This document shows positions 491 through 62,004 of a DNA stretch of 64,000 nt, one piece after another. The notes under the pieces were generated by a model. That model saw only the letters and a list, made by a program, of their open reading frames with translations, was not told the origin of the DNA and did no database searches. Origin of the DNA: Halospeciosus flavus (GTDB lineage: Archaea > Halobacteriota > Halobacteria > Halobacteriales > Halobacteriaceae); contig NZ_CP122312.1 in NCBI RefSeq assembly GCF_029814175.1, forward strand, positions 1,488,001-1,552,000, read 5' to 3'. The first letter of the stretch is position 1, and each line of letters opens with the position of its first letter. The translations under genes and the position numbers were made by a program.

Positions 491-1591
491 ATGACGTCGT
501 TCGAAGCGCGGACGCGGGAGTGTCAGCGTCAGTTGGCGGACGACGAGGCGCTCGTCCTGTTCCCGAGCCCCAACTGCTACTACCTCGGTGGCTTCGACGA
601 GGAACCCGGCGAACGTCACTTCTTCCTCTTCGTCCCCTCGAGCGGTGACCCCGCGTTCGTCGTCCCGGAACTCTACGCCGAACAGGTACAGACATCGACG
701 TGGGTCGAAGACGTGCGGACGTGGGCCGACGACGAGGACCCACTCGAAGTCGTCCGCGAGGTCGCCGCCGACCTCGACGTCGCCGACGCGCACCTCTTGC
801 TCGACGCGACGATGTGGGCACGGTTCGTCCTCGACCTCCAGCGGGCGCTCCCCGACGCGACGGTCGGACTCGCCGACGAGGTGCTCACGGCACTCCGAGT
901 CCGCAAGGACGAACACGAACTTGACGCCCTCCGCGAAGCGGCCGACGTGGCCGACGCCGTCGTCGAGGGGGTCCGCGACCTGGGCGCCGACGCGGTCGGG
1001 ATGACCGAGCGAGAACTCGCCCGCGACGTCGAGTCACGACTCTACGAGCACGGCGCCGAGACCCTCGCGTTCGACATTATCGTCGGGTCGGGACCGAACG
1101 GCGCACAGCCACACCACGGCGCCGGCGACCGAACCATCGAGTCGGGCGACCCCGTCGTCCTCGACTTCGGCGCGCGCGTCGACCACTACCCGAGCGACCA
1201 GACGCGCACCGTCGTCTTCGACGGCGACCCGCCGGCCGAGTTCGAGACGGTCCACGAGACGGTCCGCGAGGCCCAGAACGCGGCCGTCTCCATCGTCGAA
1301 CCCGGCGTCGAGGCGCAGGAAGTCGACGCCGTCGCCCGGAGCGTGATCGAGGACGCGGGCTACGGCGAGCAGTTCGTGCACCGGACCGGCCACGGCGTCG
1401 GCCTGGAGGTCCACGAGAGCCCCTACATCGTCGACGGCAACGACCGCGAACTCGAACCGGGGATGGTGTTCAGCGTCGAACCCGGTATCTACCTCGACGG
1501 CGAGTTCGGCGTCCGCATCGAGGACCTCGTCGTCGTCACCGAAGACGGCCACGAACGGCTGAACACGACGCCCCGCGGGTGGCGAGTGTAG
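491..1591 (+). CDS. M24 family Xaa-Pro dipeptidase/aminopeptidase
   Basis: A 366-residue pita-bread metallopeptidase. An N-terminal creatinase-like domain (about 1-135) precedes the catalytic domain. All five expected metal ligands are present: D225 in VVLDFGA, D236 in SDQTRT, H301 in GHGVGLEVHE, E330 in SVEPGIY and E344 in RIEDLVV. The family removes or cleaves residues before proline in peptides, in the cytoplasm. The ATG chosen is the first in frame and gives the normal family length. This protein is a useful contrast to the ligand-less relative at 29007-30083. Exact substrate preference cannot be read from sequence. Confidence 0.9.
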   Translation: MTSFEARTRECQRQLADDEALVLFPSPNCYYLGGFDEEPGERHFFLFVPSSGDPAFVVPELYAEQVQTSTWVEDVRTWADDEDPLEVVREVAADLDVADAHLLLDATMWARFVLDLQRALPDATVGLADEVLTALRVRKDEHELDALREAADVADAVVEGVRDLGADAVGMTERELARDVESRLYEHGAETLAFDIIVGSGPNGAQPHHGAGDRTIESGDPVVLDFGARVDHYPSDQTRTVVFDGDPPAEFETVHETVREAQNAAVSIVEPGVEAQEVDAVARSVIEDAGYGEQFVHRTGHGVGLEVHESPYIVDGNDRELEPGMVFSVEPGIYLDGEFGVRIEDLVVVTEDGHERLNTTPRGWRV

Positions 1592-9554: not shown

Positions 9555-10787
9555 TCAACTCGACGCGGCCAGGTCGACGTCGGCCATGTCGACGACGGAC
9601 TCGTGGACGCCGACGAGTTGGACCGTCTCGGAGAGTGCCGAGAGCACCTGCTCGACCGGGAGGTCGAGTTCGTACTCGCGGTAGGTACCGCCGCGGCGGC
9701 CCTCGTTGCGCTCGGTGACGGAGACGATGCCGAGCATCGTGAGTTCGGAGAGGTGGTCGCGCATCCGTCGGGGGACGAGCGGGTCGCGCTCGGCGAGACG
9801 AGCGAACCGGGTGTAACGCGGGCGGATGTCTCGCGAGCGGATGGGGGTCTCCCCTTCGATCTCGTTGGTGACCAGCGAGTAGAGGACGAGGTGGCCGTGC
9901 TCGGTGAGGCCGCGGATGCCCTCCTCGATGCGCCCGCGTTCGAGGGCGGTGCGACCCTCCTCGACGTGGTCCTCGGTGATGGTCTCGGATTCGGCGTCGC
10001 GGGCGATGTCGCCGGCCTTCATCAGGAGGTCGATGGACTGTCGCGCGTCGCCGGCGTCTTTCGCGCCGTAGGCCGCACACAGCGGGATGACGCCGGGCTC
10101 GAGGACGTCCTCGTAGAAGGCGACGTCGGCACGCTGTCGGAGGATGGCCTTCAGGTCCTCGGCGTCGTAGGCGGGGAAGTGGATCTCGTTCTCGCAGAGC
10201 GAGGACTTGACCTTGGGCGAGAGGTCGTCTCGGAAGGAGAAGTCGTTCGAGATGCCGATGATACCGACCTGGGTGTCGTCGAGTTTACCGTTAGCGCGGG
10301 CGCGCGGGAGTTGGTAGAGGATCGAGTCGTCCTCGATGTTGTCGATCTCGTCGAGGACGATGAGGACGGTGCCGCCGTAGTCGTCGAGTTCCTCCCAGAG
10401 CATGTCGTAGACCGTCGCGAGCGGGTAGCCCGTCGTCGATATCTGGTCGTGCTCGGAGCGGAACTCGTTGACGAGGTGGGTGGCGACCTGGTAGGACGAG
10501 GTGAGGCCGTCGCAGTTGAGAAACTGGATGGAGAGGGAGATGTCGTCGTACTTCGCGGCGTCCTCGCGGAGGTGTCCAAGGAGGTACCGAGTGGCGGCAG
10601 TCTTCCCGACGCCGGTCTTCCCGTAGAGGAAGACGTTGTTCGGCTGCTCGCCGTTGATGACCGGTTGCAGCGCCGCCTTGTACGTCCGGAGTTCCTCGTC
10701 ACGTCCCACCAACTCGTCGGGCTGGTAGTCCTCGCGGAGGGCGTCGCGCTCCCGATAGATGTCGTAGTCCCGCTCGAACAGCGCCAT
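9555..10787 (-). CDS. orc1/cdc6: Orc1/Cdc6 family replication initiator
   Basis: A 410-residue AAA+ initiator. Walker A is GKTGVGKT (56-63), Walker B is VLIVLDEID with D146/E147, and sensor-like GISNDFSF follows. The C-terminal winged helix runs from about 300 (RIEEGIRGLTEHGHLVLYSL to GTYREYELDL). The N-terminus LFERDYDIYRERDALREDYQ is typical of halobacterial Orc1. It binds origin recognition boxes and loads MCM. The gene is bracketed by TGTCCGCAGTT repeats, one 12 bases after its stop and at least seven upstream, making this a probable origin. TATA-like GTATATAACA (10811-10820) is about 28 bases before the ATG, so the mRNA is probably leaderless. Confidence 0.93.
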   Translation of the reverse strand: MALFERDYDIYRERDALREDYQPDELVGRDEELRTYKAALQPVINGEQPNNVFLYGKTGVGKTAATRYLLGHLREDAAKYDDISLSIQFLNCDGLTSSYQVATHLVNEFRSEHDQISTTGYPLATVYDMLWEELDDYGGTVLIVLDEIDNIEDDSILYQLPRARANGKLDDTQVGIIGISNDFSFRDDLSPKVKSSLCENEIHFPAYDAEDLKAILRQRADVAFYEDVLEPGVIPLCAAYGAKDAGDARQSIDLLMKAGDIARDAESETITEDHVEEGRTALERGRIEEGIRGLTEHGHLVLYSLVTNEIEGETPIRSRDIRPRYTRFARLAERDPLVPRRMRDHLSELTMLGIVSVTERNEGRRGGTYREYELDLPVEQVLSALSETVQLVGVHESVVDMADVDLAASS

Positions 10788-10810
10788 GGAGTAGCCCTTT
10801 CCGCGCCCCG

Positions 10811-10820
10811 GTATATAACA
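10811..10820 (-). promoter_or_regulatory. orc1/cdc6 promoter TATA region
   Basis: GTATATAACA lies about 28 bases before the orc1 ATG. A degenerate copy of the origin repeat (ACCACCGCGTCCGCGG, about 10819-10834) abuts it on the BRE side, and a good copy follows at 10846-10855. The initiator may therefore bind its own promoter. Confidence 0.5.
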
Positions 10821-10898
10821 CCACCGCGTCCGCGGCGTCCGGAGCGTCCGCAGTTCTGAGAGTTTATAAAGAACGCCGGGAACACACCCCCACCACTC

Positions 10899-10915
10899 TG
10901 TCCGCAGTTGTGGGG
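10899..10915 (+). repeat. Origin recognition box-like repeat, left of the AT-rich element
   Basis: TGTCCGCAGTT (10899-10909) preceded by CCACCACTC and followed by GTGGGGG, the G-string arrangement described for halobacterial origin recognition boxes. It is paired in inverted orientation with the copy at 11107-11117. Confidence 0.65.
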
Positions 10916-11106
10916 GAACGGGTGGGGGCGGGGTGAGGGAAGGCCCCTAGAGAAGCGGTATCTATAAGTCGAGGTGCAAAAAATTAGTCCGTAGTCCACC
11001 TTCATCGTGCTGCGTCTCGTCTAGCCGTCTGATCGTTCTCGCCAGCTCCTGTCAACTCTTTTGTCCGTCCCGTCGACGCTCCCTCCCGCCACCCCTCTTG
11101 ACGGGG

Positions 11107-11117
11107 AACTGCGGACA
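11107..11117 (-). repeat. Origin recognition box-like repeat, right of the AT-rich element
   Basis: AACTGCGGACA on the plus strand, i.e. TGTCCGCAGTT on the minus strand. On the minus strand it is preceded by CTCCACTT. With the 10899 copy it brackets the AT-rich stretch. Confidence 0.65.
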
Positions 11118-11255
11118 AAGTGGAGGGGGTGTGTTCGACCCCCCCTCGTCGGCCGTCACTCCCCACTCGCGGTCTCGTCCTCCTGCCTCACGCCGTTCGA
11201 CGCCGTCGTACGGAGGATACAGGATTCCCTCCGGACGACGCCTGACGAGCCGGCT

Positions 11256-11488
11256 TACTGCGGACTTTGTGGTGTTGCACTGACCGCAACACGCGCTAGA
11301 TGAGGTCCGCGACACGCTCTAGCCAGTCGTCGACGCCGCCGAAACCACACCACTATGTCCGCAGTAATCGGCACTTCGACTCGTGCTGGACGCGACGACC
11401 GGACGGAGCCGACACCACCGTGTCCGCTGTTCTCACTGCGAGCGCCCCTCGCTCCAGCGGTGCTCGCGACCCCACTCCGTCCGCAGTT
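11256..11488. repeat. Cluster of four further origin-type repeats
   Basis: Cores at 11256-11266 (minus, AGTCCGCAGTA), 11356-11366 (plus, TGTCCGCAGTA), 11421-11431 (plus, TGTCCGCTGTT) and 11478-11488 (plus, CGTCCGCAGTT). Left flanks keep the CACCAC or CCACTC element. They extend the repeat field up to the FAD-linked oxidase gene. Confidence 0.6.
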
Positions 11489-11541
11489 CCTACGCCGCCG
11501 ACCGCGGCGGTCGCGTCTCGGGGCCGTGTCGTTCCAAATCC

Positions 11542-13036: not shown

Positions 13037-14281
13037 ATGGACGGAATCCGTTGGTCTCGACTGCGGTCGCTCTTCCTCGTGGTTCTCCTGGTCGGTTCCG
13101 TCGTGGCCGCGGGGGGAACCGGTGTCGGCGCCGCGACCGGGCCGGACCAGCAACCCGCTCGCACCGGGGTGGCGTCGCTCTCACCGGAGGAAGTCGACCC
13201 CGACGCCGTCGACATCACGGTCTCTCTCCAACCCGACGGCGACGCCCGGTGGACGGTCGCCTACCGGATGCGCCTCCAGACCGAGAACGAGACACAGGCG
13301 TTCCAGGACCTCCAGGCCGACGTGCGGAACAACACGAGCGCCTACCTCGACCGGTTCCGCGACCGGATCACCGCCACGGTCGCGGCCGCGGAGAACGCGA
13401 CCGGCCGGGAGATGGGTGCGAGCGACTTCGCGGTCTCCACGCGTCTCCAACCCTTCGGCGAGACCGACTACGGGATCCTCACCTACTCGTTCACCTGGTC
13501 GAACTTCGCCCGCGTCGAGGGACCGCGACTCTACGCCGGTGACGCTATCTCCGGCTTCTACCTCGACCAGGAGACGAGTCTCTCCTTCACCTACCCCGAC
13601 GCGTACGGACTCGTCTCGGTCGACCCGACGCCGAGCGTCCAGCGGTCGGGCCTCGTCGGGTGGACCGGTCCGTTCGACTTCACCGACGACGAACCGCGCG
13701 TCGTCGTCTCGACGGCGGCCCCGACGACGAGCGCGGGTGAGACGACACCCGAACCCGGCGACGGACTCGGCGGTCTCGGGCCGGTCGGCTACGTCCTCGT
13801 CGCACTCGTCGCGGCCCTCGTCGTCCTCGGTGCGGCGTGGTACTACCGCGGACGCGGTGGTGTTCCCGGCGGCGGACCCAGCGAGGAGGGCGGTGAGGTG
13901 TCCGAGGGCGGTGGACCACCCAGCAGCGCGACCAAGTCCACGGAAGCGGCGGAGTCCCCCGCGGCGGAAGCCGGTGCGGCGGCCGGGGCCGGCGCGGCGT
14001 CCGAGGAGGGCGACGAAGAACCGCCCGAGGAACTCCTGAGCAACGAGGAGCGCGTCGTGCGGTTCCTCCGCGAGCACGGCGGCCGCGCGAAACAACAGGA
14101 GATCGTCGAAGGACTCGGCTGGACCGAGGCGAAGACGAGCCAGGTCCTCAAGGGGATGCGCGAGGAGGGCGACCTCGAAGGCTTCCGCATCGGGCGTGAG
14201 AACGTCATCAAACTCCCCGACGTCGACGTCGGTGCGGGCGAGGCCGAGACGGAAGACGAGTCGAACGGGTCGGAGCGCTGA
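13037..14281 (+). CDS. Membrane-anchored winged-helix protein (DUF7343/DUF7345-like)
   Basis: A 414-residue exported or membrane protein. A signal peptide (SLFLVVLLVGSVVAAGGTGVGA) is followed by an extracytoplasmic beta-rich domain with several NxT/S sites, a low-complexity linker, a transmembrane helix (about 252-272, GYVLVALVAALVVLGAAWYY), a Gly/Ala/Glu-rich cytoplasmic linker and a C-terminal winged helix (LLSNEERVVRFLREHGGRAK to VIKLPD). The wing domain matches helix-turn-helix modules that haloarchaea put on membrane sensors. It probably couples an external signal to transcription; target unknown. Confidence 0.75.
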   Translation: MDGIRWSRLRSLFLVVLLVGSVVAAGGTGVGAATGPDQQPARTGVASLSPEEVDPDAVDITVSLQPDGDARWTVAYRMRLQTENETQAFQDLQADVRNNTSAYLDRFRDRITATVAAAENATGREMGASDFAVSTRLQPFGETDYGILTYSFTWSNFARVEGPRLYAGDAISGFYLDQETSLSFTYPDAYGLVSVDPTPSVQRSGLVGWTGPFDFTDDEPRVVVSTAAPTTSAGETTPEPGDGLGGLGPVGYVLVALVAALVVLGAAWYYRGRGGVPGGGPSEEGGEVSEGGGPPSSATKSTEAAESPAAEAGAAAGAGAASEEGDEEPPEELLSNEERVVRFLREHGGRAKQQEIVEGLGWTEAKTSQVLKGMREEGDLEGFRIGRENVIKLPDVDVGAGEAETEDESNGSER

Positions 14282-14300
14282 CGCGACCCGGGTACGCACC

Positions 14301-14340
14301 GACCGTTTAGACCGTTTAACTCCGCTTAACTGCGCTAAAT
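14301..14340 (+). repeat. Four tandem 10-bp units upstream of a TATA box
   Basis: Successive units GACCGTTTAG, ACCGTTTAAC, TCCGCTTAAC and TGCGCTAAAT share the pattern NCCGYTTAAC in exact 10-base phase, i.e. on one face of the helix. The array ends 18 bases before the TATA box at 14359, where an activator or repressor would be expected to bind. Confidence 0.55.
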
Positions 14341-14358
14341 CCACCGCGACTGTCACGT

Positions 14359-14367
14359 CCCTATATG
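14359..14367 (+). promoter_or_regulatory. TATA box for the candidate RNA
   Basis: CCCTATATG predicts transcription from about 14388-14392, just before the inverted-repeat region. An ATG at 14395 could also be read as a leaderless start. Confidence 0.5.
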
Positions 14368-14389
14368 TCTTCCCGGTCACTACGGACGA

Positions 14390-15018
14390 GTGCGATGAAC
14401 CACACGGCACACGGGGTGTCCACGCTGGGTAACGGTCCGATCGGCTCTCTGACGCCGGTTACCGTGGCGCAGCTGTCCCCCCACTGTGCCCCCTGCGACC
14501 GCGACCGCGACGTCCCCTGTGCGCGGTCGCGGCAGTCGGCGTGGACACGCCAATCTCGCCAGCGCGCGCATGGAGCGCCGCCGTGTGGCTCGTCGCGACG
14601 GGACGACCACGGACAGCGCGACAGAGGCACGGCACACGCCGCCCGCCGACCGGACGACCCACTCCTCCGGCACGCGGCGGCGACACGGTTCGGGCGGGGC
14701 GGCCCCTTCGCTCCCGCCTCCCCTCGCGCTGTCCGACCACTCCCTTCGGCCGCGGTCGGACAACCACGTCGACCGCGACCACGCAGAGGCAACGGCCGGT
14801 GTCGAGCAACACCGCCGACGCAGCACCCCCACGCCTGCTCGGCCGTGTCGACACCCGCCAGTCCGACTCACGTCGGTCCGGTGATCGTCGTCCCGTCGGA
14901 TGGGACGGTACCGAGCGTACCGTCACGACCGACGACGCGGTGACGCGACCGGGACACACCCACCCCTCGCTCCCACTCCGACACCACCCGTCCCGGTCGA
15001 CGTCGCCGGTCGTCGACC
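14390..15018 (+). ncRNA. Candidate structured non-coding RNA (core 14416-14548)
   Basis: The core is closed by a perfect 10-bp stem, GTGTCCACGC (14416-14425) with GCGTGGACAC (14539-14548). Inside are three hairpins in series: GGTAACGG (14428-14435) with CCGGTTACC (14455-14463, one bulge); GGCGCAG (14466-14472) with CTGTGCC (14484-14490, one G-U); and GCGACCGCG (14501-14509) with CGCGGTCGC (14522-14530). This makes a cloverleaf-like four-way junction that is not a tRNA and shows no RNase P, 7S or tmRNA landmarks. Further hairpins follow to a terminator-like stem at 14995-15018. Existence and 3' end are inferred from sequence only. Confidence 0.4.
14995..15018 (+). terminator. Hairpin with pyrimidine tail before gdh promoter
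   Basis: Perfect 8-bp inverted repeat GGTCGACG (14995-15002) and CGTCGACC (15011-15018) with an 8-base loop, followed at once by CTTCTTTCCTT. It lies just before the TATA-like CCTTACGTAA of the dehydrogenase gene, so it could end the upstream transcript. Confidence 0.45.
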
Positions 15019-15054
15019 CTTCTTTCCTTACGTAATGATTGCGTACTAAAGTGT

Positions 15055-16314
15055 ATGGGAGAGTCAGACCCGTTAGCGAACATGCTATCTCAGGTGGAGC
15101 GTGCCCGCGAGTTCGTCGACGTCCCCGACGACGTCTACCCACAGCTCCGGACGCCGGAGCGGACGCTGAAGGTGAGCCTGCCGGTCCGCCGGGACGACGG
15201 GTCCGTCGAGGTGTTCGAGGGGTATCGCTGTCAGTACGACAGCGCGCGCGGCCCGTACAAGGGCGGAATCCGCTACCACCCGGCCGTCTCGATGGACGAG
15301 GTGACCGCGCTCGCCGGTTGGATGACGTGGAAGTCGGCCGTCGTCGACCTGCCGTTCGGCGGCGCGAAGGGGGGCGTCGTCTGTGACCCGGCGGAGTTGT
15401 CCGAGGGTGAACTGCGGCGGCTCACCCGCGCGTACACCGACGGCGTCCGCCGGGTCATCGGGCCGGACACCGACATCCCCGCGCCGGACGTGAACACCGA
15501 CCCGCAGACGATGGCGTGGCTGATGGACACCTACTCGCGCTACGAGGACCACGCCGTCCCGGAGGTCGTCACGGGCAAACCCCTCGAAATCGGTGGGACG
15601 GAGGGGCGCGTCGAGGCGACCGGTCGCGGCATCACCATCGTCACCGAACGGACGTTCGACTACCTCGACACCAACCTCGACGGCGCGTCGGTCGCCATCC
15701 AGGGCTTCGGGAACGTCGGGAGTGTCGCCGCCCGTCTACTGGACGAGCGCGGGGCGGACGTCGTCGCCATCAGCGACGTCTCGGGCGGCGTCCACGACCC
15801 AGACGGACTTGACGTCCAGGCCCTCCTCGACCACGTCGATACGGCGGGGTACGTCGAGGGCTTCGAGACCGTGGCTGCCGGCGCCGACGCCGTCACCAAC
15901 GAACAACTCCTCACGGAGGACGTCGACGTGCTCGTCCCGGCGGCCATCGAGGACGTGATCACCGAGGAGATCGCCCGCGACCTCTCCGCGGACGTGGTCG
16001 TCGAGGCGGCCAACGGCCCGACGACGGCCGCCGGCGACGAGGTCCTCCGCCAGCGCGACGTCCCGGTCGTCCCGGACATCCTCGCGAACGCGGGCGGCGT
16101 CGTCGTCTCCCACCTCGAGTGGGTCCAGAACACCCAACAGTACTCGTGGTCGCGCGAGGAGGTGAACCGGGACCTCCGCCAGCGTCTCACGCGCGGGTTC
16201 GAGGACCTCCTCGACGTCTACGAGTCGCGCGACGTTCCCGATCTCCGGACGGCCGCCTACGTCGTCGCCCTCGACCGGGTCGCGGCGGCCCACGAGGTCC
16301 GTGGCCCACTGTGA
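15055..16314 (+). CDS. gdhB: Glutamate dehydrogenase, Glu/Leu/Phe/Val family
   Basis: A 419-residue protein with GPYKGGIRYHP, then MTWKSAVVDLPFGGAKGGV, containing the substrate and catalytic Lys residues (K93, K105), and the nucleotide-binding GFGNVG near residue 222. It interconverts 2-oxoglutarate plus ammonia and glutamate with NAD(P)H. Length is normal for the family. TATA-like CCTTACGTAA lies about 25 bases before the ATG, so a very short or absent leader is likely. Coenzyme preference cannot be decided by eye. The gene is monocistronic, converging on a small membrane-protein gene. Confidence 0.92.
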   Translation: MGESDPLANMLSQVERAREFVDVPDDVYPQLRTPERTLKVSLPVRRDDGSVEVFEGYRCQYDSARGPYKGGIRYHPAVSMDEVTALAGWMTWKSAVVDLPFGGAKGGVVCDPAELSEGELRRLTRAYTDGVRRVIGPDTDIPAPDVNTDPQTMAWLMDTYSRYEDHAVPEVVTGKPLEIGGTEGRVEATGRGITIVTERTFDYLDTNLDGASVAIQGFGNVGSVAARLLDERGADVVAISDVSGGVHDPDGLDVQALLDHVDTAGYVEGFETVAAGADAVTNEQLLTEDVDVLVPAAIEDVITEEIARDLSADVVVEAANGPTTAAGDEVLRQRDVPVVPDILANAGGVVVSHLEWVQNTQQYSWSREEVNRDLRQRLTRGFEDLLDVYESRDVPDLRTAAYVVALDRVAAAHEVRGPL

Positions 16315-18000: not shown

Positions 18001-18963
18001 TCACTCGCGTTCTGCCTGAAACGCCTCGACTTCCTCGCGCGTCGGGAGCGCCGCCATCGCCCCCGTGTCGGTCGTCGTCACGGCCGCGACGGCGTTCGCG
18101 AACGCCAGTACTTCCTCCGGACCGTCCCCGCGACAGAGTGCCGCGAGCGCCCCGCCGAGGAACGCGTCGCCCGCGCCCGTCGTATCCTCGGGGTCGACCG
18201 GGTACCCCTCGTGTTCGACCGCCGTCTCGCCCCACGGCGCGTCCTCGGCGGCGTGGAACGCCGACCCGGCGCCGCCGAGCGTCAGGAGCACCGTGTGTGG
18301 TCCCGCTTCGAGCAGCGCAGTCGCGAACGCCTCGGGGTCGTCGGGGTAGTCCGCGCGGGCGAAGTCCTCGGCGCTCGTCTTCACGACGTCGGCGAGTCCG
18401 AGCATCCGACTCACCACCTCGGCTTCGGTGTCGGCGTCGGCCCACAACTCCGGACGGCTGTTCGGGTCGAACACGACCTGACAGTCGTGCTCGCGGGCGC
18501 GCTCGACGAGGTCGAAGGTCGCCGTCCGCGCGGGGTCGGCCGCGAGCATCACGCCGCCGACGACGACCCACTCGACCTCGTCGAGCGTCTCGTCGGGGAC
18601 GACGGTCGCGTCGACGTGCAGGTCGGCGGTGTCCTCCCGGTAGAAAGAGAACGAGCGGTCGGCGTCGACGTCGTGGGTGACGAACGCGAGTGCGGTCTGG
18701 TGGTCCTCGTCGCGCGTCACGAAGCGGTCGGGGACGCCGTAGTCGTCGAGCGTCGCGGAGAGGAAGTCGCCGAACGCGTCGGCCGCGAGGTTCGAGAGGA
18801 ACCACGGCGTCTCCTCCAGTTGGGCGAGTGCGACCGCGACGTTCGCGGGGGCGCCGCCCGCGCGCCGGTCGAAGGTCTCTACCTCGGTCAGCGGGCCGAC
18901 GCGGTTGGGAAGGAAGTCCACGAGCGTCTCGCCGGCGACGAGGACGGACGGAGTGTCGGACAT
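18001..18963 (-). CDS. PfkB family sugar kinase (fructokinase-like)
   Basis: A 320-residue kinase. GETLVDFLPNR and RRAGGAPANVAVALAQLE form the N-terminal substrate-binding signature, and DPEDTTGAGDAFLGGALAAL near 250-269 is the C-terminal PfkB signature with catalytic Asp. Closest in style to fructokinase or 2-keto-3-deoxygluconate kinase. It is the last gene of the minus-strand sugar island, 55 bases after the isomerase gene, and would phosphorylate the sugar made by the upstream dehydrogenases and isomerases. Exact substrate unknown. Confidence 0.85.
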   Translation of the reverse strand: MSDTPSVLVAGETLVDFLPNRVGPLTEVETFDRRAGGAPANVAVALAQLEETPWFLSNLAADAFGDFLSATLDDYGVPDRFVTRDEDHQTALAFVTHDVDADRSFSFYREDTADLHVDATVVPDETLDEVEWVVVGGVMLAADPARTATFDLVERAREHDCQVVFDPNSRPELWADADTEAEVVSRMLGLADVVKTSAEDFARADYPDDPEAFATALLEAGPHTVLLTLGGAGSAFHAAEDAPWGETAVEHEGYPVDPEDTTGAGDAFLGGALAALCRGDGPEEVLAFANAVAAVTTTDTGAMAALPTREEVEAFQAERE

Positions 18964-20039: not shown

Positions 20040-20747
20040 TCACTCCCGCGGGTCGACGTTCCCGAACTCGACGTCCACCGTCTCGCCGGGCGCGGCCCAC
20101 GCGACGGCGTTCCGAATCACTCGCTGAATCTCCTCGTTCCGGTAGATGGGGTAGGTCTCGTGGCCCGGGCGGAAGTAGAAGACGCGCCCGGCACCGCGGC
20201 GGTAGGCACACCCCGAGCGGAACACCTCGCCGCCCTCGAACCACGAGGTGAAGACGAGGGCGTCGGGTTGGGGAACGTCGAAGCGCTCGCCGTACATCTC
20301 GGTCCGGTCGAGTTCGATAGCTTCGCCGACGCCGTCGGCGACCGGGTGACCCGGTTCGACGACCCAGAGGCGCTCGCGTTCGCCCTCTTCGCGCCACTTC
20401 AGCGAGCACGACGTGCCCATCAGCCGTTTGAACGGCTTCGAGTAGTGCGCGGAGTGGAGCGGGACGAACCCCATCCCCTCGTGAACCCGCTCGACGACGC
20501 GGTCGACGACGTCGTCGCGCACCTCGTCGTGGGCGGCGTGCCCCCACCAGAGGAGGACGTCGGTGTCGCCGAGGACCGCTTCGGTGAGACCGTGTTCGTC
20601 CTCGTCGAGCGTCGCGGTGCGGACGTCGTGGCCCGCGTCGGCGAGGAAATCGGCGAGGACCGCGTGGATGCCGTCGGGGTACACCTCGGCGACCTCCTCG
20701 TCTTCGCGCTCGTGGACGAACTCGTTCCAGACGGTGACCGAAACCAT
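20040..20747 (-). CDS. ThuA domain protein (trehalose utilisation family)
   Basis: A 235-residue protein with the glutamine-amidotransferase-like ThuA fold: [11 protein letters not shown] at the start, [32 protein letters not shown] and [14 protein letters not shown]. ThuA proteins act with Gfo/Idh/MocA dehydrogenases (ThuB) in catabolism of trehalose and other disaccharides through 3-keto intermediates. Here it lies 52 bases after a ThuB-like dehydrogenase gene on the same strand, which supports that pairing. The precise reaction of ThuA is poorly defined. Confidence 0.85.
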
Positions 20748-30464: not shown

Positions 30465-30520
30465 GTGAGGGACGTCGTCCCGCGCGGGAAAGGAGGTTGC
30501 GGACGCGCGGCGGTCCGTTT

Positions 30521-30660
30521 CTCAGATATGGCCGCCGTATCTCAGTTATCGACTCGATATCTCGACTATCGGGACAATAACTGAGTTACGCGCGACGTTG
30601 TCGAGATATGCGCCGCGTTGTCGAGATATAGGCGACGTTGCGGAGATATCGATGACCGTC
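30521..30660 (+). repeat. Seven tandem 20-bp degenerate units
   Basis: Units start exactly every 20 bases at 30521, 30541, 30561, 30581, 30601, 30621 and 30641. Their first nine bases are CTCAGATAT, CTCAGTTAT, CTCGACTAT, CTGAGTTAC, TCGAGATAT, TCGAGATAT and CGGAGATAT; the second halves are GC-rich, and GACGTTG or GCGTTG ends units 4, 5 and 6. The array fills the gap between the tautomerase-like gene start and the end of the DadA-like gene. Exact two-turn spacing suggests cooperative protein binding on one DNA face. Confidence 0.65.
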
Positions 30661-30671
30661 GAAGCGTGGCG

Positions 30672-54732: not shown

Positions 54733-57107
54733 TGCGTCTCACCCCGTTCGCGCATGGCGACGAGTGTCAACACCGAGATGGCGGCGAGCGCCACGACGGC
54801 GATCTCCCCCAGCGTGTCGAACGCCCGGAAGTCGACGAGGATGACGTTGACGATGTTCCCGCCGCCGCCCTTCGGGACCGCGTTCTCGACGAAGTAGTCG
54901 GCGATGACCTGGTCCGCCTCGCCGGCCGTCGACAGGAGGACGCTCGCGGCGACGGCGACCCCGACGAACACCGAGAGGGCGGCGTCGCGGGCGACGCGGT
55001 GGCCCTTCCAGTCGCCGTAGAACGCCGGGAGGCGGTCGAGGACGAGCAGGAAGATGACGAGGACGAGCGTCTCGACGACGAGTTGCGTGAGCGCGAGGTC
55101 GGGCGCGCTCGCGAGGATGTAGAAGATGGCGACCATGAATCCGAGGATGGAGAGCGTCAACACGCCCGCGACGTGCGAGGGCGAGAACGTCACCGCGGCG
55201 GCGGCCCCGACGGCGGTCACGAGGACGATTATCAGCGAGAGCGGGAGCGTCACCGCGATGCCCGAGAGTTCGACGCTCGCCGCGAGGTAGCCGCCGAGCG
55301 AGAGGGCGGCCATCCCGGCGAACGTCCACCACGCGTACGTGCGGAGGAGACCGGTCTGGACGGCGTCCTCGACGGCCACGCTCAGGCGGTTGAGTCCGAA
55401 GACGGCCGAGTCGTACCACCAGTCCGCCCGGAGTGGCGGCGCGGCCGCGAGACCCGCCCGGAGGCCGCGGTGGAGGCGGCCGTACTGCGGGTAGACGGCG
55501 GCACCGAGACCGATCGTCACGAGGCTCATGGTCAGCGCGGGCGTGAGGTGCGTCGGAACGTAGTAAGAGAAGCCGCCGTGGCCGCCCCCGCCGTGCCCGC
55601 CGGCGGCCGTGGCGTCGACGACGGTCCCGACGAACGACTCGACTGGTGTGAGGTGGACGCCGAACGAGGCGGCCACCCCGCCGAGACCGACCGTGAGCGC
55701 GAACGCGGCGAGGAGCACCGGCGGGACGCGCATCGCCACGGGCGGAGCGTGGACGTGGTCAAGTCCCTCGGGTTTCTCACCGAAGAACAGCATCAGGAAG
55801 CGCACGGAGTAGAGGAACGTGAAGACGCTGCCGAACACCGCGACGACGGGCGCGAGCCACGCGAGACCGCCCGCGTGCGCGCCGAACTCCCAGGCCGCTT
55901 CGAAGAGGAGTTCCTTCGAGTAGAAGCCGTTGAACGGCGGGAGTCCGGCCATCCCGAGCGCGGCGACGACCGTGACCGCCGCCGTGACCGGGAGGTCGCG
56001 CCAGAGACCGCCGAGTTCGCGGATGTCGCGGGTCCCCGCCTCGTGGGCGACGATACCGGCGACGAGGAACAGCGGCGCCTTGAACGTCGCGTGGTTCAGG
56101 ATGTGGAAGGAGCCGGTCTCCGCGCCGTAGACGGTCGCGAAGCCGAAGCCGGCGACGATGAGGCCGAGGTGGGAGGCCGTCGAGTAGGCGAGCAACTGTT
56201 TGATGTCCGTCGCGGTCACCGCGAGGATGGCCGCGACGGTCATCGTCAACAGGCCCATCACCGCGAAGAGGAGCGTCCACTCCTCGGTCAGCAGGAGGGG
56301 ACGGAAGCGACCGACGAGGTAGACGCCGGCCTTCACCATCGTCGCGGAGTGGAGGAACGCCGAGACGGGTGTCGGCGCCTCCATCGCGTCCGGGAGCCAG
56401 ACGTGGAGCGGGACCTGTGCGGACTTCGCCGCCGCGCCGATACCCAGTAGACCGACGACGGGGACGAGCAGGCCGGCCTCGCGGAGGGCGTGGCGGACCG
56501 ACTCGGAGTGGTGGAGCATCTCGGCGATGCTGTAGGTCCCGGCGACGTTCGCGAGGAGGACGAAGCCGACGAGCATGAACAGCCCACCGCCCACGGTGAT
56601 GATCATGGACTTGCGGGCCGCGTATCGCGCCGAGCGTTCCCCCCGGTAGTGGCCGATGAGGAGGAACGAGGCGACGCTCGTCAGTTCCCAGAAGACGAAG
56701 AGGGCGACGAGGTCGCCCGCGAGCGCGACGCCCAGCATCGACCCCATGAACGCGAGGAGCGTCGCGTAGTACTTCATCTGGCCCGGTTCGCCGTGCATGT
56801 AGCCCCGTGAGTACGTGAAGATGAGGACGCCCACGCCGCTCGCGAGGAACGAGATGAGCAGCGCGAGTCCGTCCACGTAGAACCGGAGCGACACGGCGGG
56901 CTCTATCGAACTGACCCACCCGATGGCGACGGCGCCTTTCGTCCCGTACTGGGACGCGGCGAGGCCGAAACACACGAACGCGATGGCGGCCGCGAAGTAG
57001 GCCGTGCGTTCGCCCGCCACCCGGTAGACCAGCGGCGTCGCGGCCGCCCCCGCGAAGGGGAGGCCCACGAGCGCAAGCACCGCTAGGAGGTCCGGTGTCG
57101 GTTGCAC
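54729..57107 (-). CDS. mnhA: Mrp-type Na+/H+ antiporter subunit A
   Basis: A 792-residue NuoL-like subunit with about 20 helices. [20 protein letters not shown] carries the channel Glu, [20 protein letters not shown] the conserved Lys/His segment, and the C-terminal part holds the DUF4040/MbhD- and MbhE-like modules ([18 protein letters not shown]). GTG at 57107 was chosen because TATA-like GCATTAAGTC lies about 26 bases upstream, fitting a leaderless mRNA; a GTG at 57119 is possible. It is the first gene of mnhABCDEFG, which exports Na+ against H+. Confidence 0.93.
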
Positions 57108-58709: not shown

Positions 58710-58784
58710 AGCGGGATGGGATAGCCAGGAGATTCCGCCGGGCTCATAACCCGGAGATCGGTGGTTCAAATCCACTTCCCGCTA
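58710..58784 (+). tRNA. Initiator tRNA-Met (CAT)
   Basis: A 75-base tRNA. Acceptor AGCGGGA (58710-58716) pairs with TCCCGCT (58777-58783), with discriminator A at 58784. The anticodon stem CCGGG/CCCGG encloses CTCATAA, giving anticodon CAT. T-stem GGTGG/CCACT encloses TTCAAAT. The A-U first pair and three consecutive G-C pairs in the anticodon stem mark it as the archaeal initiator. CCA is not encoded. Confidence 0.93.
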
Positions 58785-61317: not shown

Positions 61318-62004
61318 TCACGACACCTCCGCGTTCGCTTCGACGTCCGCCGGCCGGGCGCGGATGGCTGCGGCGACGTTCTCGGGGAGGTTGACCTCCT
61401 CGTCCGCTGCGACCCCGCGGAGCGTCACCATCCCGATGGGGGCGACCTCGACCACGTCGAAGGTGCGGCCGGGTTCGACGCCGGCGTCGGCGAGGTAGCG
61501 CAGTTCTTCCTCGTCACGGTCGCGGACGCGGGCGACGACGACGCGCTCACCCTCCTCGAACGCGGTGAGGGGGGCGGTGTCGTCCTCCGCGAGTTCGAGG
61601 TCCTCGGTCGGGATGGGGTCGCCGTGGGGGTCGACCGAGGGGTCGCCGAGCGCCTCGGCGACGCGTCGCTCGAACTCCTCGGAGATGTGGTGTTCGAGTG
61701 CGTCGGCCTCGTCGTGGACCTCGCTCCACTCGTAGTCGAGGTGCTCGGCGAGGTACGCCTCCAGCAACCGGTGGTGGCGCAGCACTTCGAGAGCGACCGT
61801 CTCGCCCTCGTCTGTGAGCATCGCCCCCTTGTACTTCTCGCGGTCGACCAACCCCCGCTCTTCGAGGTTCTCGAGCATGCTGGTGACCGTCGGCGGGGTC
61901 ACGTCGAGGTAGTCGGCGAGCGCCGACGTCCCGACGCGGCCGTCTTCCTCGCGCTGGAGGGCGTAGAGTGCCTTCAGGTAGTCCTCCATGACGTCACTGA
62001 GCAT
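61318..62004 (-). CDS. DtxR/MntR/SirR family metal-dependent transcriptional regulator
   Basis: A 228-residue regulator. The N-terminal winged helix (MEDYLKALYALQREEDGRVG, SALADYLDVTPPTVTSMLEN) binds DNA; HHRLLEAYLAEHLDYEWSEV and DEADALEHHISEEFERRVAE carry metal ligands; the C-terminal SH3-like FeoA domain has DAGVEPGRTFDVVEVAPIG. It represses target genes when bound to Fe2+ or Mn2+. A palindrome (62019-62032) lies in its own promoter. It is coupled to the GDT1-type transporter. Confidence 0.92.
   Translation of the reverse strand: MLSDVMEDYLKALYALQREEDGRVGTSALADYLDVTPPTVTSMLENLEERGLVDREKYKGAMLTDEGETVALEVLRHHRLLEAYLAEHLDYEWSEVHDEADALEHHISEEFERRVAEALGDPSVDPHGDPIPTEDLELAEDDTAPLTAFEEGERVVVARVRDRDEEELRYLADAGVEPGRTFDVVEVAPIGMVTLRGVAADEEVNLPENVAAAIRARPADVEANAEVS

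Follow-up and report, generated by a model that had tools for sequence, protein, structure and literature searches.

The window, i.e. the whole 64,000-nt stretch of Halospeciosus flavus DNA analysed here, contains a predicted structured RNA of about 640 nt immediately upstream of gdhB, the gene for glutamate dehydrogenase, and on the same strand. The 5' neighbour of the RNA is a gene for a DUF7345/DUF7343 protein (Pfam), which ends at 14281. In Halobacterium the DUF7345/DUF7343 gene and gdhB are adjacent, with a short gap between them and without the RNA; compared with Halobacterium, the window carries extra DNA between the two genes. The 14390-15029 region is present in a single copy in the source genome. 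It is laid out as two domains followed by a terminal 25-bp hairpin, and is bounded by a TATA box (14362) and the gdhB promoter, as detailed in the following list.

14301..14318, plus strand: two tandem GACCGTTTA boxes, operator-like; the GACCGTT of the second box ends 45 nt ahead of the TATA box
14362..14367, plus strand: TATA box of the RNA, TATATG
14390..15029, plus strand: predicted structured RNA, about 640 nt, its 5' end placed by the TATA spacing and its 3' end by the last hairpin and the pyrimidine tract
14391..14401, plus strand: conserved 5' end TGCGATGAACC, identical in relative G006
14392..14408, plus strand: 5' strand of the outer closing stem of domain I, 16 bp with 14580-14596, pair probability 0.99
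14413..14551, plus strand: inner stem 14413-14427 / 14537-14551 with hairpins 14432-14465, 14466-14490 and 14499-14532, pair probabilities 0.93-0.99
14580..14596, plus strand: 3' strand of the outer closing stem of domain I, pairing with 14392-14408
14597..14897, plus strand: domain II, abutting domain I, with an 11-bp closing stem 14597-14607 / 14887-14897, pair probability 1.00
14610-14735, 14748-14780, 14798-14855 and 14856-14883, plus strand: arms of domain II, from base-pair probabilities
14622..14629 and 14784-14791, plus strand: copies 1 and 2 of the CAGAGGCA motif
14904..14924, plus strand: small 8-bp hairpin GACGGTAC / GTACCGTC, from base-pair probabilities
14930..15015, plus strand: domain III, the 25-bp terminal hairpin, pair probability 0.99, with a G-poor, C-rich loop of 34 nt
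15019..15029, plus strand: pyrimidine tract CTTCTTTCCTT, a possible terminator and the sole terminator-like site in 14250-15100
15027..15035, plus strand: TATA-like element CTTACGTAA, the promoter element of gdhB itself, 28 nt before the ATG
15055..16314, plus strand: gdhB, glutamate dehydrogenase (Pfam PF00208 and PF02812)

The initial annotation had described a cloverleaf-like RNA at 14390-14550, with a perfect 10-bp closing stem around three hairpins and a TATA box of its own. The 10-bp stem 14416-14425 / 14539-14548 is indeed perfect (GTGTCCACGC / GCGTGGACAC), the three hairpins listed above lie inside it, and TATATG at 14362-14367 provides the TATA box. The extent had been drawn too short: the structured unit spans 14390-15029 and is about four times longer, so that the hairpins originally noted make up only its first third. 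A repeat search detected a perfect 12-nt inverted repeat, 14596-14607 / 14887-14898, which begins at the end of the domain I stem, and a second inverted repeat, 14610-14621 / 14724-14735, nested within it. According to the base-pair probabilities, the interior of domain II at 14624-14720 is poorly determined. The sequence AGAGGCA is also present upstream of gdhB in two of the relatives discussed below (G006 and G007) and in no other gdh upstream region scanned, which is suggestive only; 7-mers common to the three genera were not clearly above shuffles.

Folding strength was compared with that of shuffled sequences, a check that the initial annotation had proposed. The predicted energy of 14390-14560 alone is -90.4 kcal/mol, whereas 200 dinucleotide shuffles averaged -73.6 ± 4.7 (z -3.6), one of the 200 being as good. 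In this GC-rich window z values near -3 are not rare for 200-nt stretches, and several stretches reach -4 to -6 (20 shuffles each); therefore the local fold alone is weak evidence. For 14385-15035 the plus strand gave -347.7 versus -298.0 ± 6.9 (60 shuffles), corresponding to a z of -7.2, versus -3.6 for the reverse complement. When 650-nt samples were scanned, both samples covering the RNA showed an energy gain of 17% over shuffles, the top of 121 samples, against a mean gain of 2.4 ± 3.6% in these samples and 9.9% for the next distinct region. The RNA region also has the lowest z among the intergenic gaps tested.

Inspection of the sequences ahead of gdhB across the family revealed counterparts of the RNA directly 5' of this gene in three relatives, and the evidence base for the RNA family thus comprises four genomes from three genera. 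The counterpart in the second genus (G006) is about 660 nt long, while those in the third genus (G001 and G007) are about 160 nt. In all four genomes the RNA and gdhB are adjacent and in the same orientation, while the gene on the 5' side differs: a DUF7345/DUF7343 gene in the window, a divergent gene for a DICT-domain protein in G006, and in G007 a divergent GDPD-like gene, so named from its sequence. The folds are again stronger on the plus strand, with z values on the plus versus the minus strand of -4.0 versus -0.9 in G006, -5.1 versus -2.0 in G001 and -2.9 versus -2.2 in G007. The strand-specific folding beyond shuffles that is generally sought in a structured non-coding RNA gene is therefore present.

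Smith-Waterman comparison of 14290-14425 with the gdhB upstream regions of about 55 loci singled out G006 (z 12.6, 0 of 200 shuffles as high), the next best loci being G001 (z 3.8) and G007 (z 2.2). In Halorubrum, Halorarius, Halomarina and others, most of the sequences ahead of gdhB folded unremarkably; L088, L013 and L016 gave z values of -4 to -4.7 (10 shuffles each), the 650 nt of L013 and L016 being mostly coding. On the gdhB tree the window was joined with G006 (86/89), and G001/G007 were placed beside Halobacterium (93/93), with moderate support and two long rows. According to this tree, the simplest history would be an ancestral RNA that was lost or moved in Halobacterium.

The outer closing stem of domain I is the part of the fold that can be followed into the second genus. 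In G006 it reads GCGATGA-A-CCGGACG / CGTCCGG-...-TCATCGC, at 787-801 / 883-904 (reverse complement of L017), and 14 of 14 pairs are kept between the window and G006. Two of them are double changes, from A-U to G-C at 14402/14586 and from C-G to G-C at 14403/14585, and the U-G pair at 14396/14592 of the window is U-A in G006. In G006, too, domain I is directly adjoined by a second domain, whose stem is 905-918 / 1044-1057. The short forms consist of a single long arm, whose distance from the TATA box is similar, and an 11-bp hairpin with a C-rich loop; like the last hairpin of the window, this one ends about 39 nt ahead of the gdhB start codon. The pyrimidine tract was not seen in the short forms. 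Comparison of G001 with G007 showed that 41 of 44 pairs are formed in both, with two double and seven one-sided changes, and that the named structure is 96.6% paired versus 31-44% in slid controls; column shuffles of this two-row alignment were as high in 128 of 500 cases, a result that is not decisive with two rows. The one-sided changes pass via G-U, a combination that pairs only in plus-strand RNA.

Helices are thus kept through compensatory changes, as generally looked for in structured RNAs, although the covariation is thin and derives from two sequence pairs. In the covariation check suggested at the outset, the closing stem showed these few compensatory changes, and covariance models retrieved no further relative. 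The relatives share the outer closing stem and the layout, not the cloverleaf that had been taken for the conserved element: the three-hairpin interior is not conserved in them, and the interior folds given for each genus are single-sequence predictions evaluated with shuffles. Because the covariance models failed across genera, what connects the large with the short forms is their promoter, location and layout rather than a proven common fold.

The TATA box at 14362 predicts a start site near 14388-14390, just ahead of the closing stem. The span from the TATA box to the end of TGCGATGAACC is 40 nt in both the window and G006. The signature GACCGTTYA-N(41-45)-TATA has five occurrences in 26 family genomes, four of which are the RNA promoters upstream of gdhB, one per RNA-bearing genome. 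The fifth (G011) was rejected as an RNA promoter: it lies where a coding region begins, and no structure follows it. A promoter signature conserved in four genomes thus precedes the predicted RNA, and the upstream GACCGTT element suggests that this RNA may be controlled by a transcription factor. In the short-form genomes the GACCGTT element is half of a dyad, GACCGTTCAC-N5-GTGAACGGTC, which is perfect in G001 and has one mismatch in G007; lying 5' of the short-form TATA box (L149, L150), the dyad is an operator-like candidate site. For gdhB, a CTTA box 28-29 nt before the ATG is also found in G001/G007, G006 and Halobacterium, whether the RNA is present or absent.

Database searches did not assign the RNA to a known family. 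Rfam 15 contained no family scoring above its gathering threshold, riboswitches, RNase P, SRP, OLE, ROOL, GOLLD and the group II intron included, and at E <= 10 only two matches appeared, far below the gathering scores. The sole Rfam match in the window is a tRNA at 58710, and ARAGORN likewise reported only this tRNA-Met. In agreement with the early remark that the structure does not match tRNA, RNase P, 7S or tmRNA, ARAGORN recognised no cloverleaf at the RNA, by which tRNA and tmRNA were rejected; RNase P RNA and SRP RNA were rejected as well, their genome copies being located elsewhere (G000:C1:2300073-2300400 and 1630682-1630997). A group II intron, considered on account of GUGCG at the 5' end, was rejected in the absence of an Rfam match. 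The only blastn matches of the region among 394 genomes of the order were short and GC-rich, and plasmid and phage searches gave no match to the region. Covariance models built from domain I (single sequence), the 3' part (single sequence) and the short form (two sequences) found their own sources and chance-level matches only; one match inside a gene at 61732-61852 of the window (27.7 bits) was regarded as chance. The genome-scale model searches covered more than 40 genomes with strict filters and few candidates scored per genome, and distant copies, including one moved within Halobacterium, may for this reason be missed. No report of the RNA was found in the open-access literature. Three IMG/VR contigs (L145, L146 and L147) match the stem pattern GTGTCCACGC-N(100-130)-GCGTGGACAC; another stem-pattern search gave no IMG/VR match.

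Several explanations other than an RNA gene were considered. The least probable is chance folding of a GC-rich intergenic stretch. It can appeal to the low z values of other 200-nt stretches of the window, but the 650-nt signal is an outlier both of the 121 samples and of the tested gaps, and chance is contradicted by the conserved promoter and the compensatory changes, so that an RNA gene is probably the better account. It is very unlikely that the region is a remnant of a mobile element or a set of palindromes acting at the DNA level. The additional DNA relative to Halobacterium and the abundance of inverted repeats would agree with such an origin; however, the single genome copy and the negative plasmid and phage searches do not fit a transposable element or MITE, the same place is occupied in three genera behind a conserved promoter, and the strand bias and G-U-preserving changes point to RNA. 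A translated leader or small protein, with the structure a by-product or a means of translation control, is also unlikely. An open reading frame starting at ATG 14395 remains open to 14943 in the window, and an ATG about 5 nt past the predicted start is found in both the window (MNHT...) and G006 (MNRT...), which would allow near-leaderless expression; the short forms have no ATG at the matching place, and the frames of about 183 codons (window) and 76 codons (G006) have nothing in common beyond the first residues. Both are rich in R, P and S, unlike the acidic haloarchaeal proteome. No codon-phase GC periodicity was detected in the RNA region, and the open reading frames overlapping it have no Pfam match.

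The main alternative, considered less likely than a separate RNA gene, is that the region acts as a long regulatory leader of gdhB: read-through from about 14388 would yield a second, longer gdhB transcript, with the terminal hairpin as an attenuator that perhaps responds to a nitrogen signal. The constant adjacency and orientation of the RNA and gdhB in four of four genomes, despite the changing 5' gene, could equally mean cis-control, and both in the window and in the short forms a long hairpin stands immediately ahead of the gdhB promoter. On the other hand, gdhB has a promoter 28-29 nt before its ATG whether or not the RNA is present, which is what a leaderless message would show, and no Shine-Dalgarno-like stretch precedes the ATG; for Haloferax volcanii, the share of leaderless messages is cited as 72% (PMC6560208). 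Pairing of the RNA with the gdhB start does not exceed that of shuffles, and the Halobacterium gdhB genes lack the RNA. The promoter that gdhB retains makes a transcript separate from gdhB the most likely form of the RNA.

The region 14390-15029 is thus best read as encoding a structured non-coding RNA that is large and evolves fast and is predicted to be a separate transcript, with a probability of roughly 0.58; that a conserved structured RNA is made from the plus strand is very likely. The strand-specific fold, the common promoter and 5' end, the fixed place before gdhB and the closing stem with its compensatory changes were computed; transcription, the exact ends and the non-coding nature of the RNA are inferred, and so are its regulation by a transcription factor and any link with nitrogen metabolism. 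The original suggestion of a new non-coding RNA or long leader is upheld by the negative Rfam search, by folding beyond shuffles and by the preservation of promoter, place and closing-stem pairs, but not in its extent or its conserved cloverleaf. Under the RNA-gene reading, the TATA promoter and the upstream GACCGTT element would start an RNA whose 5' end runs straight into the closing stem; two multi-branched domains would follow, and the RNA would probably end at the 25-bp hairpin and the pyrimidine tract just before gdhB. It would not serve as a message but work as an RNA, either as a folded scaffold or as a regulator.

OLE, ROOL and GOLLD are large ornate bacterial non-coding RNAs (PMC12286853), and the RNA resembles them in its length of several hundred nucleotides, its multi-domain and highly structured fold and its apparently separate, here predicted, transcript. 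It differs from them in its haloarchaeal host, its place before gdhB, the absence of a sequence or covariance match in Rfam, its fast-evolving interior and its length of only about 160 nt in one of the genera. Haloferax volcanii sRNA132 is an intergenic RNA with its own basal promoter and a narrow phylogenetic range (PMC6560208). The RNA of the window is likewise haloarchaeal, intergenic and narrowly distributed, with a predicted promoter of its own and a neighbour gene that also has one, but it exceeds sRNA132 in size and has a highly structured predicted fold, and no homology is claimed. Archaeal RNase P RNA (RF00373) and SRP RNA (RF01857) are comparable as structured haloarchaeal RNAs of several hundred nucleotides, but both sit elsewhere in the same genome. 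Like the riboswitch and attenuator leaders of amino-acid and nitrogen genes, the RNA is structured and immediately 5' of a nitrogen-metabolism gene; unlike them, it precedes a gene with its own promoter, has no Rfam riboswitch match and has no conserved ligand pocket that could be defined.

Most of the large, intricately folded non-coding RNAs known so far come from bacteria, and beyond the universal ones few haloarchaeal RNAs have a predicted structure with evolutionary support. For the RNA described here the promoter signature is sharp, the ends are predicted and the neighbour is fixed. It is also an example of an RNA that changes its interior from genus to genus but retains its promoter, 5' end and closing stem. 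More speculatively, several genera of this family may have inherited from a common ancestor a haloarchaeal group of large ornate RNAs, which Halobacterium would have lost or relocated. The closing stem and promoter of such RNAs would be conserved, and their interior would vary between a single arm in forms of about 160 nt and two multi-branched domains in forms of about 640 nt; they might serve as a regulated scaffold or ribonucleoprotein linked to nitrogen metabolism.

Some other features of the window were observed. The 200-nt stretches 18401-18600, 20401-20600 and 56201-56400 have z values of -5 to -6 (20 shuffles each); 20401-20600 and 56201-56400 lie inside predicted coding regions, and 18401-18600 has no called gene. 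The intergenic stretch 30465-30671, where GC is lower (0.58), folds with z values of -4.4 on the plus and -3.5 on the minus strand and contains a 24-nt hairpin, 83% complementary, at 30536-30590; it may represent a terminator or a small RNA. An Orc1/Cdc6 gene is located at 9555-10787 on the minus strand (Pfam Cdc6_lid and Cdc6_C), and several ACTGCGGACAAAGTGG-like repeats in both orientations lie upstream of it at 10818-11487. The 9555-11490 region, some 3 kb away from the gdhB-upstream RNA, resembles a replication origin of haloarchaea with elements of the ORB type.
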